DNA of 30,569 nt, taken from IMG/VR virus record IMGVR_UViG_3300030943_000127, positions 1-30,569 of that record. The stretch is one strand, 5' to 3'. Origin of the DNA: a virus. Shown here one piece after another: positions 3,107 through 30,569 of this stretch. A program made the translations under genes and the position numbers. Position 1 is the stretch's first letter. Each line of letters opens with the position of its first letter. The notes below the pieces were generated by a model. It was not told the DNA's origin. It saw only the letters and a program-made list of their open reading frames with translations, and ran no database searches.

Positions 3107-3585
3107 CAGAACGCGAAAAGATAGGCAAAGAGATATTCACATGGATAGACAAAGACCATACGTATACTTTGGTACTTATTCCCTACGCTGTAAGTATTGG
3201 AGCCATAACTCCAGAGGAAGGGGCAGCGTGTAAAAAGGATCTTGAGGAATACTACGAAAAGAACAAAGTGGAGAAAACTCACATGGAAAAGGTATTTATG
3301 GTAATTTTCCCGATACTTGGATTTTCAAAGAGCAAGATTCTTTACAATCTGATAACACAATTGCCTGATTACGTTGTCGAGGGTACTACATTAAGGGTCA
3401 ACGAAGAGCATATATTGAAGAAATTTGACAAAATGAGTACTCATGCTTTCTATCGTATCATGAATGAGCTTGAGTCAGACGGATATATCACTAAGGGCAA
3501 GAACAAGGGCAAAAAGGTATATACAATCAACTTCGACACTATTGAGGATACGTATAATAAACGGAAGGAAACCGACAATGGCTAA
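3103..3585 (+). CDS. winged-helix protein in small-terminase position, 160 aa
   Basis: ATG 3103 has GGGGG upstream and overlaps the previous stop. The C-terminal half (about residues 75-150) is a clear winged-helix pattern: KSKILYNLITQLPDYVVEG, then FDKMSTHAFYRIMNELESDG and the wing YITKGKNKGKKVYTINFDT. The N-terminal half is helical. Its position directly before the large terminase, with an 8-bp overlap, is where a small terminase (DNA recognition subunit) is normally found, and no other candidate is seen. A regulator role is the alternative. Confidence 0.55.
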   Translation: MTEREKIGKEIFTWIDKDHTYTLVLIPYAVSIGAITPEEGAACKKDLEEYYEKNKVEKTHMEKVFMVIFPILGFSKSKILYNLITQLPDYVVEGTTLRVNEEHILKKFDKMSTHAFYRIMNELESDGYITKGKNKGKKVYTINFDTIEDTYNKRKETDNG

Positions 3586-24813: not shown

Positions 24814-24987
24814 ATGCTAACTGTGATAAACAAGAATCCGCTAACGATTATGACAAACAACGGCAGACAGTTTCGGGCTAATCTACCGCTGTCAATCGGA
24901 TGGGAAAAAGGCGACAAGTTCAACGTGATTGTCGATGATGAGAACAAGGATTGTATTATCCTTGAAAGATTAAAGGGGGACGAATGA
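24814..24987 (+). CDS. small hypothetical beta protein, 57 aa
   Basis: ATG 24814 has a strong GAAGGGGGTAAA ribosome site. An in-frame ATG at 24709, overlapping the preceding stop region, would add 35 hydrophobic residues (MTYKTGCLTIFIGFVEPYKI...). From 24814 the product is MLTVINKNPLTIMTNNGRQF..., beta-rich with WEKGDKFNVIVDDENKDCII, resembling a small AbrB/SpoVT-type swapped barrel. I favour the downstream start. The stop overlaps the SSB ATG. Confidence 0.55.
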   Translation: MLTVINKNPLTIMTNNGRQFRANLPLSIGWEKGDKFNVIVDDENKDCIILERLKGDE

Positions 24988-25394
24988 ACGCGCTTAATAG
25001 TATTTTACTTGAAGGTAATTTAACGAAAGATCCTGAACTAAAAGAACTTCCTTCCGCTTCTGTTGTTTGCAGTTTTAGCATTGCAAGTAATCGGTCATTT
25101 AAAAAGGGTGACGAATGGGAACAGGAAGTCTCGTACTTCGATGTTGAGGCATGGGGAAAACTTGGCGAATCAGTCGGAAGAAACTGCAATAAAGGTAGGG
25201 GCGTTCGCGTTGTTGGTCGAATCAAGCAAGAGCGATGGAATGACACTGACGGAAAGACACGATCAAAAGTAAAAATAATTGCCGAACACGTCGAGTTTAA
25301 ACCGTTGCAAAACACAGATAACGACAGCAAACCGCAACAGAGCGCAAGAAACGACAGCGCACCGCCTGATTTTCCAGACGATAAGCCAGTATAA
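24984..25394 (+). CDS. ssb: single-stranded DNA-binding protein
   Basis: An OB-fold SSB of 136 residues. The N-terminus MNALNSILLEGNLTKDPELK, then SFSIASNRSFKKGDEWEQEV, SYFDVEAWGKLGESV and GVRVVGRIKQERWNDTDGKT follow the family order. The C-terminal 30 residues are polar and disordered, ending DFPDDKPV, a reduced form of the acidic tip that contacts partner proteins. It overlaps the gene before by 4 bp and supports the annealing protein and replication. Confidence 0.93.
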   Translation: MNALNSILLEGNLTKDPELKELPSASVVCSFSIASNRSFKKGDEWEQEVSYFDVEAWGKLGESVGRNCNKGRGVRVVGRIKQERWNDTDGKTRSKVKIIAEHVEFKPLQNTDNDSKPQQSARNDSAPPDFPDDKPV

Positions 25395-26463: not shown

Positions 26464-26712
26464 ATGACTATTAAAAACAATCTCTTTGAATACCTTGACA
26501 GTCAACCGGAACGAATGTTTTCCGGTTGGGGATTATTCGATGTCATGTATTTCAGAACAGGATCTAAGACAATGCCCGAAACTTTGCTAAAGTACGCCAG
26601 AGAATATGCAGACATATCCGGGGCAAGTTTTGAGTGTTTAGACAAGGCAAAATCAAAGTACTTTTATAAACCAGGGTACAAGATCGCTGGACGATTGTGG
26701 GGGAGAGAATGA
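26464..26712 (+). CDS. hypothetical helical protein, 82 aa
   Basis: ATG 26464 directly follows the previous stop. The product (MTIKNNLFEYLDSQPERMFS...) resembles a small winged-helix domain: LFEYLDSQPERMFSGWGLFD, PETLLKYAREYADISGASFE and a C-terminal wing YFYKPGYKIAGRLWGRE. It precedes the initiator gene and overlaps it by 4 bp. It may be a replication or regulatory partner; this is inference. Confidence 0.5.
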   Translation: MTIKNNLFEYLDSQPERMFSGWGLFDVMYFRTGSKTMPETLLKYAREYADISGASFECLDKAKSKYFYKPGYKIAGRLWGRE

Positions 26713-27440
26713 ATTGGTTCCAACACGATACAGATTCTACGCAAGACGCGAAACTTAAAAAGCTATTAATCCGTCATGGTGCAATCGGTTACGCTGTATA
26801 CTTTCACTGTCTGGAGCTTATTGCATCTGACATATCAGAAAGTAATTTAACATTTGAGCTTGAACATGATTCCGAAATAATAGCGTCAAACCTATTTATC
26901 AAGGGAACCTCTGAAAAATCCGGTATAGAGATTGTAGAGCAGGTTATGCGTGATATTATCGAAATCGGACTATTTAGCGAGTCAAATGGGAGGATAATGT
27001 GTCTTAAATTGTTAAAGCGTATGAGTTTATCAATGACATCTAATCCAATGTTTCGGGCAGCCATTAACAAGAAAAAGGAAGAATATCATGACGACATCAT
27101 GACTCATCATGATTTTATCACGACGCGTCATGAGACATTAAAAGGATTAACAGTATTAAAAGGATTAGAGGATAATAAGAGTGTGCAACCTACGGTTACA
27201 CCTAAACCCACTTTTCAAAAACCAACTCTTGAACAAGTAAAGGAATACTGTCAAGAACGTCAAAACAGCTTGAAAGCTGAAAAGTGGTTTGACTTCTACA
27301 CTTCTAACGGATGGAAGGTAGGCAAGAACACTATGAAAGATTGGAAGGCAGCGGTTAGGACATGGGAGCAAAACGATTTTAAGGTAACAACAAAAGAAGG
27401 CGGGTACAAGTTCAAAGCGGAGGATTATAAAGACATATGA
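26709..27440 (+). CDS. replication initiator, DUF4373 (Lin1244/Lin1753-type) N-terminus
   Basis: I chose ATG 26709, directly after GGGGGAGAG, over an in-frame GTG 26697, giving 243 residues. The N-terminus (MNWFQHDTDSTQDAKLKKLL, then GAIGYAVYFHCLELIA) is the DUF4373/Lin1244-like winged-helix domain of phage replisome organisers. The middle is a His/Asp-rich linker (HDDIMTHHDFITTRHETLKG, about 126-145), encoded by the iteron region. The C-terminal part (about 170-243) has a helical domain with KAEKWFDFYTSNGWKVG, found in related initiators. It likely binds the origin inside its own gene and recruits the host helicase; no phage helicase was seen. Confidence 0.8.
   Translation: MNWFQHDTDSTQDAKLKKLLIRHGAIGYAVYFHCLELIASDISESNLTFELEHDSEIIASNLFIKGTSEKSGIEIVEQVMRDIIEIGLFSESNGRIMCLKLLKRMSLSMTSNPMFRAAINKKKEEYHDDIMTHHDFITTRHETLKGLTVLKGLEDNKSVQPTVTPKPTFQKPTLEQVKEYCQERQNSLKAEKWFDFYTSNGWKVGKNTMKDWKAAVRTWEQNDFKVTTKEGGYKFKAEDYKDI
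27085..27167 (+). repeat. helically phased iterons and 13-mers: candidate replication origin
   Basis: Five RTCAYGA sites start at 27085, 27096, 27106, 27117 and 27127 (spacings 11, 10, 11, 10 bp), so they lie on one face of the helix. Then an AT-rich segment holds two exact copies of ATTAAAAGGATTA at 27137-27149 and 27155-27167, 18 bp apart, a likely unwinding element. The whole lies inside the initiator gene, in its linker, as the lambda origin does in gene O. Spacing of 10-11 is not a multiple of 3, so codon repetition does not explain it. Confidence 0.65.
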
Positions 27441-27874
27441 AAACGATTGGCGAGTTTATGGACAAAATGACAAGCTATTTCGGAGGCGTCAAAAACAAGG
27501 CCGTAGCGGATCTGATTATCGAGGAATTACGGTATATCAAACCTTCAGACCTTGATATGCTTTTCCGACAGTTGGCAATCAGTCAGCCGGCGTCATGGAA
27601 CCCTGACCTTAAAAGCATTACCGATGCAATCAAGGCTTGCAAGATTGATACTTTGAGCGAACCAGGGAGAGAGAATAAATGCCCTGTTTGCGGTCATGTC
27701 TGGAATACAACAGGTATTTGTCCAGTCTGTTGCTACAATCCAGAGCGTGATGGTACGCCGGACGAACACCGGCAATGGTTCAAGGACTGGAAAGCGGGAA
27801 AAGAAAAGCGGTTTGACGTACACGGTATGTTAAACAATCTATTAGCCGAAAAGACGGTAAGGAGCGGGGAATGA
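27437..27874 (+). CDS. zinc-ribbon replication-region protein, 145 aa
   Basis: ATG overlaps the initiator stop. The product has an N-terminal helical part (IGEFMDKMTSYFGGVKNKAV), a middle part with SDLDMLFRQLAISQPASWNP, a zinc ribbon CPVCGHVWNTTGICPVCCYN at about 82-101, and a basic C-terminal helix (FKDWKAGKEKRFDVHGM). A four-Cys knuckle next to the initiator suggests a replication accessory, possibly a helicase loader, but I cannot assign one. Confidence 0.55.
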   Translation: MKTIGEFMDKMTSYFGGVKNKAVADLIIEELRYIKPSDLDMLFRQLAISQPASWNPDLKSITDAIKACKIDTLSEPGRENKCPVCGHVWNTTGICPVCCYNPERDGTPDEHRQWFKDWKAGKEKRFDVHGMLNNLLAEKTVRSGE

Positions 27875-28876: not shown

Positions 28877-29164
28877 ATGGACGAAAGAAAGATCGTAAGA
28901 ACAGATCGGGCGGGTGTGTTTTTCGGGAAAGTTGAAAAACGTGAAGGTGATAACGTAACTTTGACCAACGCGCGGAGAATATGGCAATGGCAAGGTGCGG
29001 CAAGCCTTTCTGAACTCGCAGAACATGGAACGGCAAATCCTTCTCAATGCCGATTTCCCTGCGCCGTAAGTAAAGTCGAATTGTTCGGCGTCATCGAAAT
29101 ACTTGGCGTAACTGAAAAAGCCGCCGCGTCCATCGATGGGGTTCCGGAATGGAAAAAAAGATAA
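28877..29164 (+). CDS. DUF6948-like small protein, 95 aa
   Basis: The start is ATG 28877 (AAAGGGG 9 nt upstream) rather than TTG 28871. The sequence DERKIVRTDRAGVFFGKVEK, then RRIWQWQGAASLSELAEHGT, CRFPCAVSK and a C-terminal VTEKAAASIDGVPEWKK fits the DUF6948 pattern as I recall it: a small beta sandwich of unknown function found in phages. It overlaps the Gly-X repeat gene by 16 bp. I infer a link to the repeat proteins from adjacency only. Confidence 0.65.
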   Translation: MDERKIVRTDRAGVFFGKVEKREGDNVTLTNARRIWQWQGAASLSELAEHGTANPSQCRFPCAVSKVELFGVIEILGVTEKAAASIDGVPEWKKR

Positions 29165-29874
29165 AGAACTTTCTTTGCGGCGCTGGCTGGGGCTCTGGCT
29201 GGGGCGCTGGCTGGGGCGATGGCGCTGGCTGGGGCGATGGCGCTGGCTGGGGCGTTGGCGCTGGCGCTGGAGATGGCGCTGGAGATGGCGCTGGCTCTGG
29301 CGCTGGCTGGGGCGATGGCGCTGGCTGGGGAGTTGGCGCTGGCGCTGGAGATGGCGCTGGAGATGGCGCTGGCGCTGGCGTTGGCGATGGCGCTGGCTGT
29401 AAAATTACCGAATACCAGGGAAAAAATGTTTATTACATTGACTCGATTCCGTGCGTTTTTGAGTCAGTGCATGAAACGTGGTCGGCTGTTCTGGTTATTG
29501 ATCAAAATGACTTTTCGGTCGAAAAAGCGTTTATTGCTAAACTCGACGGATATTTTGCGCATGGCGATACTATCAAAGACGCTTTTGCCTCAGTAACTGA
29601 AAAAGTCATGGATAACATGGACTTTGACGAAAAGAAGAAAACTTTTTTTGATAAGTTCCCTTCATTGACCGAACAGTATGCCGCTATTGACTTTTTCTCA
29701 TGGCACCATATCATTACAGGATCGTGCGAGTTTGGCCGGAAGTCTTTCGCCAAAGAGCACGATGTCGATCTTGATGGTTCGATGACTGTCAAAAGGTTCA
29801 TTGAATTGACCAAGGAATCATACGGCGGTGATCGAATAAAAGAACTTGAAGGAATGTACAAAAAAGAAGCGTGA
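29149..29874 (+). CDS. Gly-X repeat protein with conserved C-terminal domain, 241 aa
   Basis: ATG 29149 overlaps the previous gene. Residues 1-10 are a short leader; residues 11-83 are strictly Gly at every second position (G-A, G-W, G-D, G-S, G-V), about 36 dipeptides, with a 26-residue super-repeat (GWGVGAGAGDGAGDGAG occurs twice, 78 bp apart). The C-terminal 157 residues are globular: VYYIDSIPCVFESVHETWSA, DGYFAHGDTIKDAFASVTEK, then FFSWHHIITGSCEFGRKSF. Poly-Gly helices of this sort could bundle or be flexible spacers. The reading frame is open in other frames too, but only this one continues into the domain. Function unknown. Confidence 0.8.
   Translation: MEKKIKNFLCGAGWGSGWGAGWGDGAGWGDGAGWGVGAGAGDGAGDGAGSGAGWGDGAGWGVGAGAGDGAGDGAGAGVGDGAGCKITEYQGKNVYYIDSIPCVFESVHETWSAVLVIDQNDFSVEKAFIAKLDGYFAHGDTIKDAFASVTEKVMDNMDFDEKKKTFFDKFPSLTEQYAAIDFFSWHHIITGSCEFGRKSFAKEHDVDLDGSMTVKRFIELTKESYGGDRIKELEGMYKKEA
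29179..29397 (+). repeat. Gly-X dipeptide coding repeat (GGC-NNN)
   Basis: The repeats are 6-bp units GGC/GGA-GCT/TGG/GAT/TCT/GTT, forming a 73-residue Gly-every-second-residue tract. A larger repeat recurs with a 78-bp offset (29245 and 29323). Slippage or recombination could change its length. Confidence 0.85.
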
Positions 29875-29973: not shown

Positions 29974-30569
29974 ATGTGTCAATTTTTTAGCTTTGTAGGT
30001 GATGGATACGGAAACTATCTGTATTCTGATTGGAACGTCAGGAAAAACAACCTTGACGAAAACACGGATAGCCATACATGGATATTAACCAGTAACAAGG
30101 TACCGGCTGATAAACAGGATCGTTGGTCAAAGTATGAATATAATCCTTTGACTAAGGATTTTGTAATCGATCAACCGGTTGAAGGACATGAACACAATGA
30201 CGCTGAATCATGGGTGAATAGGCTTGATTTTAAGACCATTGTGCCGACACTGATAATTAAACCGATTAAAAAACCATTAACGAAAAAAGTAAAGTTTGGT
30301 GATTCTGATATAGAAAATCTTAAAAACTGGGCTTCCGCGAGGGCTTCCGTGGTGGCTTCCGTGGGGGATTCCGCGAGGGCTTCCGTGGGGGAAGCCGTGA
30401 GGGAATCCGTGTGGGCTTCCGTGGTGGCTTCCGTGGGGGATTCCGTGAGGGATTCCGTGTGGGAAGCCGTGAGGGAATCCGTGTGGGCTTCCGTGGTGGC
30501 TTCCGTGGGGGATTCCGTGAGGGAAGCCGTGTGGGAAGACGTGAGGGAATCCGTGTGGGCTTCCGTGGT
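29974..30569 (+). CDS. 5' part of VxxS tetrapeptide-repeat protein gene
   Basis: ATG 29974 has AGGGGG at 29962-29967. The first 118 residues are non-repetitive ([20 protein letters not shown], then [20 protein letters not shown]), a head I recall from other phage proteins with such repeats. From residue 119 (30328) tandem V-x-x-S tetrapeptides run to the window end. The gene continues at base 1; collapsing the shared 27 bp gives 298 residues in frame. Function unknown; the head-repeat-tail organisation suggests a modular protein with variable middle. Confidence 0.85.
30328..30569 (+). repeat. 12-bp tandem coding repeat (right portion)
   Basis: The same GTG-NGG-GMN-KCC unit as at 1-163. 30399-30524 equals 1-126 base for base, and the last 27 bases equal the first 27. 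The first units have GCG instead of GTG at some positions (A for V), so the array drifts from left to right. Confidence 0.9.

Follow-up and report, generated by a model that had tools for sequence, protein, structure and literature searches.

A probable phage replication origin embedded in the gene of a Lin1244_N initiator

The locus and its gene neighbourhood

The window, by which we mean the whole stretch of DNA analysed here, is a complete virus entry of 30,569 bp. Both ends (1-157 and 30329-30569) carry a coding tandem repeat with a 12-bp period, and one open frame runs across the junction. Because the ends share this repeat, the record is probably a near-complete genome that was broken inside the repeat and closes there. 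A GC-rich 12/18-bp coding repeat (GAGWGDGAGW...) at 29179-29399, in ORF 29149-29874, has the same period and another sequence. The features considered below are the following.

24984..25394, + strand: SSB gene of the same replication module (SSB, E=1.3e-29)
26709..27440, + strand: initiator gene, 243 aa (ATG at 26709; open frame from GTG at 26697)
26709..27044, + strand: N-terminal winged-helix domain, aa 1-112 (AlphaFold model)
27030..27038, + strand: SMT tripeptide, aa 108-110, candidate specificity determinant (class correlation among relatives)
27085..27091, + strand: iteron 1, ATCATGA
27096..27102, + strand: iteron 2, ATCATGA
27106..27112, + strand: iteron 3, ATCATGA
27117..27123, + strand: iteron 4, ATCACGA, degenerate
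27127..27133, + strand: iteron 5, GTCATGA
27134..27183, + strand: putative DNA unwinding tract, AT-rich, 2 C in 50 nt, holding two copies of ATTAAAAGGATTA
27186..27413, + strand: C-terminal domain, aa 160-235, swappable module (phrog_15768 match)
27437..27874, + strand: downstream gene, 145 aa with a Cys-rich C-terminal half, in the helicase loader's place in relatives (by position only)

The initiator gene belongs to a replication and recombination module that also includes SSB and NinG. The first-pass annotation had called the N-terminal domain DUF4373-type, correctly so: DUF4373 is Lin1244_N, and the PF14297 profile covers aa 3-92 (E=4.7e-7) with 30.9 bits against a cut-off of 25, which places the protein in this family. 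The N-terminal part also matches phrog_2562, 'replication initiation protein' (E=1.1e-6), and the C-terminal domain matches phrog_15768 (E=7.6e-25) and, weakly, a DnaD-like helicase loader. This C-terminal domain also occurs behind other, unrelated N-domains (phages L002, L003 and L005); in L002 (5850-5925) and L003, a GCAAACCGAAA-type repeat of ~11 bp occupies the same place in the gene.

In the AlphaFold model of the N-domain (pLDDT 80, pTM 0.74), helices at 55-61 and 72-85 are followed by wing strands at 90-92/95-97 and a helix at 99-111. The model aligns to solved generic winged helices, all below Z 8 and including the DnaD N-domain 2vn2 (Z 6.9, 81 residues); the absence of other families from these matches carries no meaning. 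A Foldseek search with the full-length initiator model gave no significant match, and a PDB sequence search with the N-domain profile gave no relative. For Lin1244_N, no published function or binding site was found in the open-access literature, which misses most subscription papers.

In most relatives fetched, the Lin1244_N gene lies directly upstream of genes for DnaB helicase or for P-like or DnaC-like loaders. The gene that follows in the window (27437..27874) has no family match and no phage match. A role for it as helicase loader found no backing: tblastn gave no relative in phages or in viral contigs, and the PDB search returned only Nop10-like zinc noise.

A helically phased array under selection as DNA

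Five RTCAYGA sites lie between 27085 and 27133, all within the Lin1244_N (DUF4373) protein gene, and their starts at 27085, 27096, 27106, 27117 and 27127, in steps of 11/10/11/10 bp, are exactly those reported earlier. Iterons 1, 2, 3 and 5 contain the palindrome TCATGA, and iteron 4 reads TCACGA. Among 300 dinucleotide-shuffled windows, the maximum was two such sites per 55 bp. The two exact 13-mers ATTAAAAGGATTA, said to lie 18 bp apart, were likewise found, at 27137-27149 and 27155-27167.

The first-pass annotation had proposed that the spacing breaks codon periodicity and that selection therefore acts on DNA. The first point stands for adjacent sites, between which the reading frame alternates (HD, IM, HD, IT, HE). 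It fails at the next level: two steps make 21 bp, or 7 codons, giving the window protein a heptad-like HDxIMTx pattern, and the 18-bp spacing of the 13-mers is in frame (TLKGLT/VLKGLE). Because two steps make 7 codons, the codon-periodicity argument is weaker for the window taken alone. One might thus suppose that the heptads are selected as peptide, for instance for metal binding or oligomerisation, with the DNA pattern merely following, all the more so as the 21-bp double step recurs in several relatives. Relatives with 11/11/11 or 10/10/10 steps, however, present this DNA core in every one of the three frames, so that no peptide repeat can explain the array, and other clades keep the spacing unchanged around a different core (TCCCGACA or TCCGGA), hence with different peptides.

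The wobble positions point the same way. Counted in 42 related, non-independent sequences, the Val/Ile codons before Met end in C (NTC) in 60/60 cases compared with 245/1034 (24%) elsewhere, the motif His is encoded by CAT in 67/67 cases compared with 119/210 elsewhere, and the codon preceding it ends in T in 67/67 cases compared with 29% elsewhere. With synonymous positions fixed to this degree, we regard a purely protein-level repeat as highly improbable.

Recoding of the window's linker with synonymous codons, according to the phage's own codon usage, retained all five sites in only 318 of 200,000 trials (0.16%). Across 62 nonredundant relatives, a chain score for 10/11-bp steps beat synonymous shuffles (p<0.02) in 73% of linkers, compared with 0% of N-domains and 7% of C-terminal parts. 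Scores at 9/10 (53%) and 11/12 steps (37%) were also raised, each of these pairs sharing a step with 10/11, and step pairs of 13/14 and longer gave 5-24%. Of the 55 nonredundant relatives that came from protein searches alone, 34 had linker repeats phased at 10/11 bp beyond a codon-preserving null (p<0.01), with the reservations that in part of them the best-scoring chain is a purine tract rather than iterons and that homologue counts are not fully independent.

The proposal of selection on DNA rather than protein is thus borne out by recoding, chain scores and fixed wobble positions. It had been suggested that related phages lacking the phased sites while keeping the linker would speak against it; we found the opposite, the phased sites being kept while the linker protein and the C-domain vary. 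A DNA-only scan for TCATGA triplets gave 43 stretches; in 9 of them the triplets fell within a Lin1244_N gene, and every time in the linker. The array is absent from some domain-bearing relatives (L074-L076 and L133). The first three are 70-83 kb contigs whose Lin1244_N genes have the SMT segment, which may mean either that the domain serves another purpose there or that the origin is at another locus; in L133 (~3290-3470), Lin1244_N is joined to GIY-YIG/T5orf172-like sequence, possibly a recombinant or a homing insertion. A GC-skew change, suggested as a check at 27.1 kb, did not appear as any change of sign, and this check is uninformative because almost all genes lie on one strand.

Iteron classes and the adjoining tract

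Relatives fall into several iteron classes: TCATGA, TCCCGACA/GTCCG, TCCGGA (one phage) and others in remote members. GTCATGA sites also occur within a gene of the same kind in the E. coli K-12 phage mEp515. A tree of 97 N-domains needs 10 changes of iteron class, compared with 37.9 when shuffled; the iterons thus travel with the N-domain. The C-terminal domain clusters, which are swapped, change 33 times on this tree, a figure not on one scale with the 10 since cluster labels outnumber iteron classes.

The class is mirrored in a short segment after the wing, with SMT accompanying TCATGA and EYT accompanying TCCCGACA: SM[TAS] is present in 51/52 relatives of the former class, and [DE]YT in 24/24 of the latter. 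L145 and L150 combine a helix of the TCATGA clade with DDYT and TCCCGACA-type iterons, a mismatch that points at the post-wing segment and not at ancestry alone. This correlation makes the segment a candidate for the part of the protein that reads the iteron. That SMT might itself be a hidden DNA iteron was ruled out, as its serine codons vary freely and its conservation is thus at the protein level.

Beyond the array, predicted meltability reaches the 99.8th percentile of the window in the 50-mer whose first base, 27130, is at the edge of the last iteron. The 13-mers had been described as lying in AT-rich DNA beside the sites; the easily melted tract is indeed there, but relatives do not conserve the ATTAAAAGGATTA repeats themselves. 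At their place, relatives have kept an AT-rich, C-poor tract, usually of AGANN pentamers. In most relatives, up to 13 such units follow the last iteron in tandem, with AGA in exact 5-bp register; the longest run in this register averages 4.36 compared with 1.79 in synonymous shuffles, and no other period is enriched over the shuffles except the double of 5 bp. The tract starts 7 nt past the start of the last TCATG in 27/28 cases and 12 nt past the start of the last GTCCG in 20/20. As it is common to different iteron classes, its reader is probably distinct from the N-domain.

The window has no AGANN tract by the criterion of at least 3 units in exact 5-bp register after the last iteron (longest AGA run, 1), and its closest relatives, L028 and L061, have 4-bp AAGC repeats instead, so the pentamers are not indispensable. 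The missing pentamers, together with the degenerate iteron 4 (TCACGA), could be taken to mean that the array is a decayed ancestral one or a product of chance, with initiation now at another site. To this we give hardly any credence: five sites remain at exact helical spacing, which so few synonymous recodings preserve, very meltable DNA adjoins them, and a tandem-repeat scan of the record noted no second iteron array, GC-rich coding repeats aside.

A DNA-only probe of seven AGANN units was run against IMG/VR. This and two further DNA-probe scans gave at least 120 stretches each, and counts are not comparable between scans. Only 14 Lin1244_N genes were among the AGANN matches listed (at least 120). 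For 101 loci among the matches listed, the 75 bp upstream of AGANN contained 10/11-bp phased repeats beating all 20 dinucleotide shuffles in 59% of cases, compared with 2-7% for other steps or for the downstream side, and these repeats have many different sequences. The ORFs carrying the tracts match phage families annotated as replication initiation protein, primosomal protein, DnaD-like loader, replisome organizer and O-like. Across L168-L287, many unrelated initiator genes have 10-11 bp phased iterons directly before the pentamers, and in L191, L204, L212 and L215 the same arrangement is seen in stretches without a long ORF.

(AAGNN)7, intended as a composition control, had phased iterons upstream in 40% of loci among the matches listed, which implicates purine pentamers in general. 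We therefore treat AAGNN as another flavour of pentamer tract and the 7-bp-period set, with phased iterons in 7% of loci among the matches listed, as the clean control. These results raise the prospect, which we judge evenly balanced, that AGANN pentamers behind 10/11-bp iterons are a general strand-opening or strand-reading element of tailed-phage origins with many unrelated initiators, that the iterons of the Lin1244_N group are read by the SMT/EYT segment, and that the window is a member that lost its pentamers.

The layout of iterons plus tract also bears on whether the sites might instead be operators, through which the initiator or a neighbouring repressor autoregulates transcription or translation while the origin lies elsewhere. 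Palindromic 6-mers are typical of regulators, Lin1244_N is a generic winged helix, and regulator-like genes lie just upstream in several relatives. However, the array sits ~380 bp inside the gene and is followed by a tract of very low stability rather than a promoter, and the layout marks initiators of many unrelated types. We consider an operator array without origin function very unlikely; binding for both purposes would be compatible with an origin.

The probable origin and its relation to known systems

Taken together, the data lead us to read 27085-27183 as the phage's origin of replication, located where its own initiator gene encodes the linker, with a probability of roughly 0.88. An origin inside the initiator gene, as first proposed from the letters, is supported at the level of sequence by the phased sites, the DNA-level constraint, the conservation in the family, the linkage of the sites to the N-domain and the adjoining meltable tract. 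Two hallmarks of embedded origins of the lambda/SPP1 type are present, namely repeated sites within the initiator gene that are selected as DNA and an AT-rich, easily melted tract directly beside them. In the mechanism that we envisage, the Lin1244_N winged-helix domain would bind the TCATGA sites, which, being one per helical turn, lie on one face of the DNA. The bound initiators would form a packed array whose end abuts the AT-rich, C-poor tract 27134-27183, and their binding would strain and open this tract. The C-terminal domain, together with the next gene's product or host proteins, may then bring the replicative helicase to the exposed strand.

That an origin can lie inside its initiator gene is already known from lambda, SPP1 and 80alpha. 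For the array, the tripeptide code, the pentamer tracts and the Lin1244_N target, no description was found in the open-access literature, which misses most subscription papers, and their novelty is provisional. The analysis offers a likely function and a DNA target for a widespread phage domain of unknown role (Lin1244_N), and many unannotated phage origins would become predictable from sequence alone. Two classes distinguished by one tripeptide would also be a natural specificity switch for studying how initiators read iterons.

The comparison with lambda gene O, drawn at the outset, is apt. The lambda origin, made up of iterons and an AT-rich tract, occupies the middle part of gene O (PMC7466680); in both systems, the N-terminal domain is encoded upstream, mid-gene iterons follow and the AT-rich tract comes next. 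In lambda, the loader gene P is next to O. The four lambda iterons are inverted repeats of 18 bp at a spacing of ~20-24 bp, with the core TCCCTC/GAGGGA, whereas the window has single 6-bp TCATGA palindromes every 10-11 bp. Lambda O matches Phage_rep_O (PF04492) at 5.7e-36, whereas Lin1244_N is the sole match of the window protein at E<=0.1. The window would thus resemble lambda ori in its working, and its initiator is outside the O family. With the Lin1244_N phage proteins it shares the same Pfam domain (at gathering score), and these are encoded upstream of helicase or loader genes.

SPP1 oriL sits in gene 38 (PMC6316719), and in 80alpha, ORF20 and ORF21 suffice for autonomous replication, the origin being inferred to be embedded in ORF20 (PMC5499656). 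As proposed for the window, an origin within the initiator gene (inferred for 80alpha ORF20, shown for SPP1 gp38) combines direct repeats with an AT-rich element; in these two, however, the repeats are ~15 bp apart, the tract is of a trinucleotide AAT type in place of pentamers, and the N-domain differs (a weak HTH_36 match in 80alpha). In L061, a close relative (79% N-domain identity), Lin1244_N is followed by Phg_2220_C, the C-domain also present in 80alpha ORF20; the family is thereby linked to an initiator for which genetic evidence exists. A118 ORF49, a DnaD-like initiator of a Listeria phage (L520, 8955-9080), has ACAACG every 12 bp and then an 8-bp-period AAGAATTA tract, the same grammar of iterons and tract with other periods.

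A further parallel is the bacterial oriC, with its basal unwinding system of DnaA boxes, DnaA-trios and a DnaD recognition element (PMC10201434). As would hold for the phage tracts, sites bound as duplex there stand next to a short-period tract, which turns single-stranded and is recognised by a second activity, although the period is 3 and the initiator is DnaA, compared with 5 and phage-encoded winged-helix initiators in the phages. The window tract has neither a 3-bp AGA register nor a 3-bp periodicity peak that would indicate a DnaA-trio or DnaD element. The complement of AGANN presents 5'-TNNT-3' every 5 nt, the form of the DnaD motif; as a general reason for the pentamers this was rejected, since AAG-type tracts also follow phased iterons and make no TNNT, and the link to DnaD is therefore a lead only. 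If the pentamer tract is real, it would be a second case, beside the DnaA-trios of oriC, of a short-period tract adjoining an initiator array.
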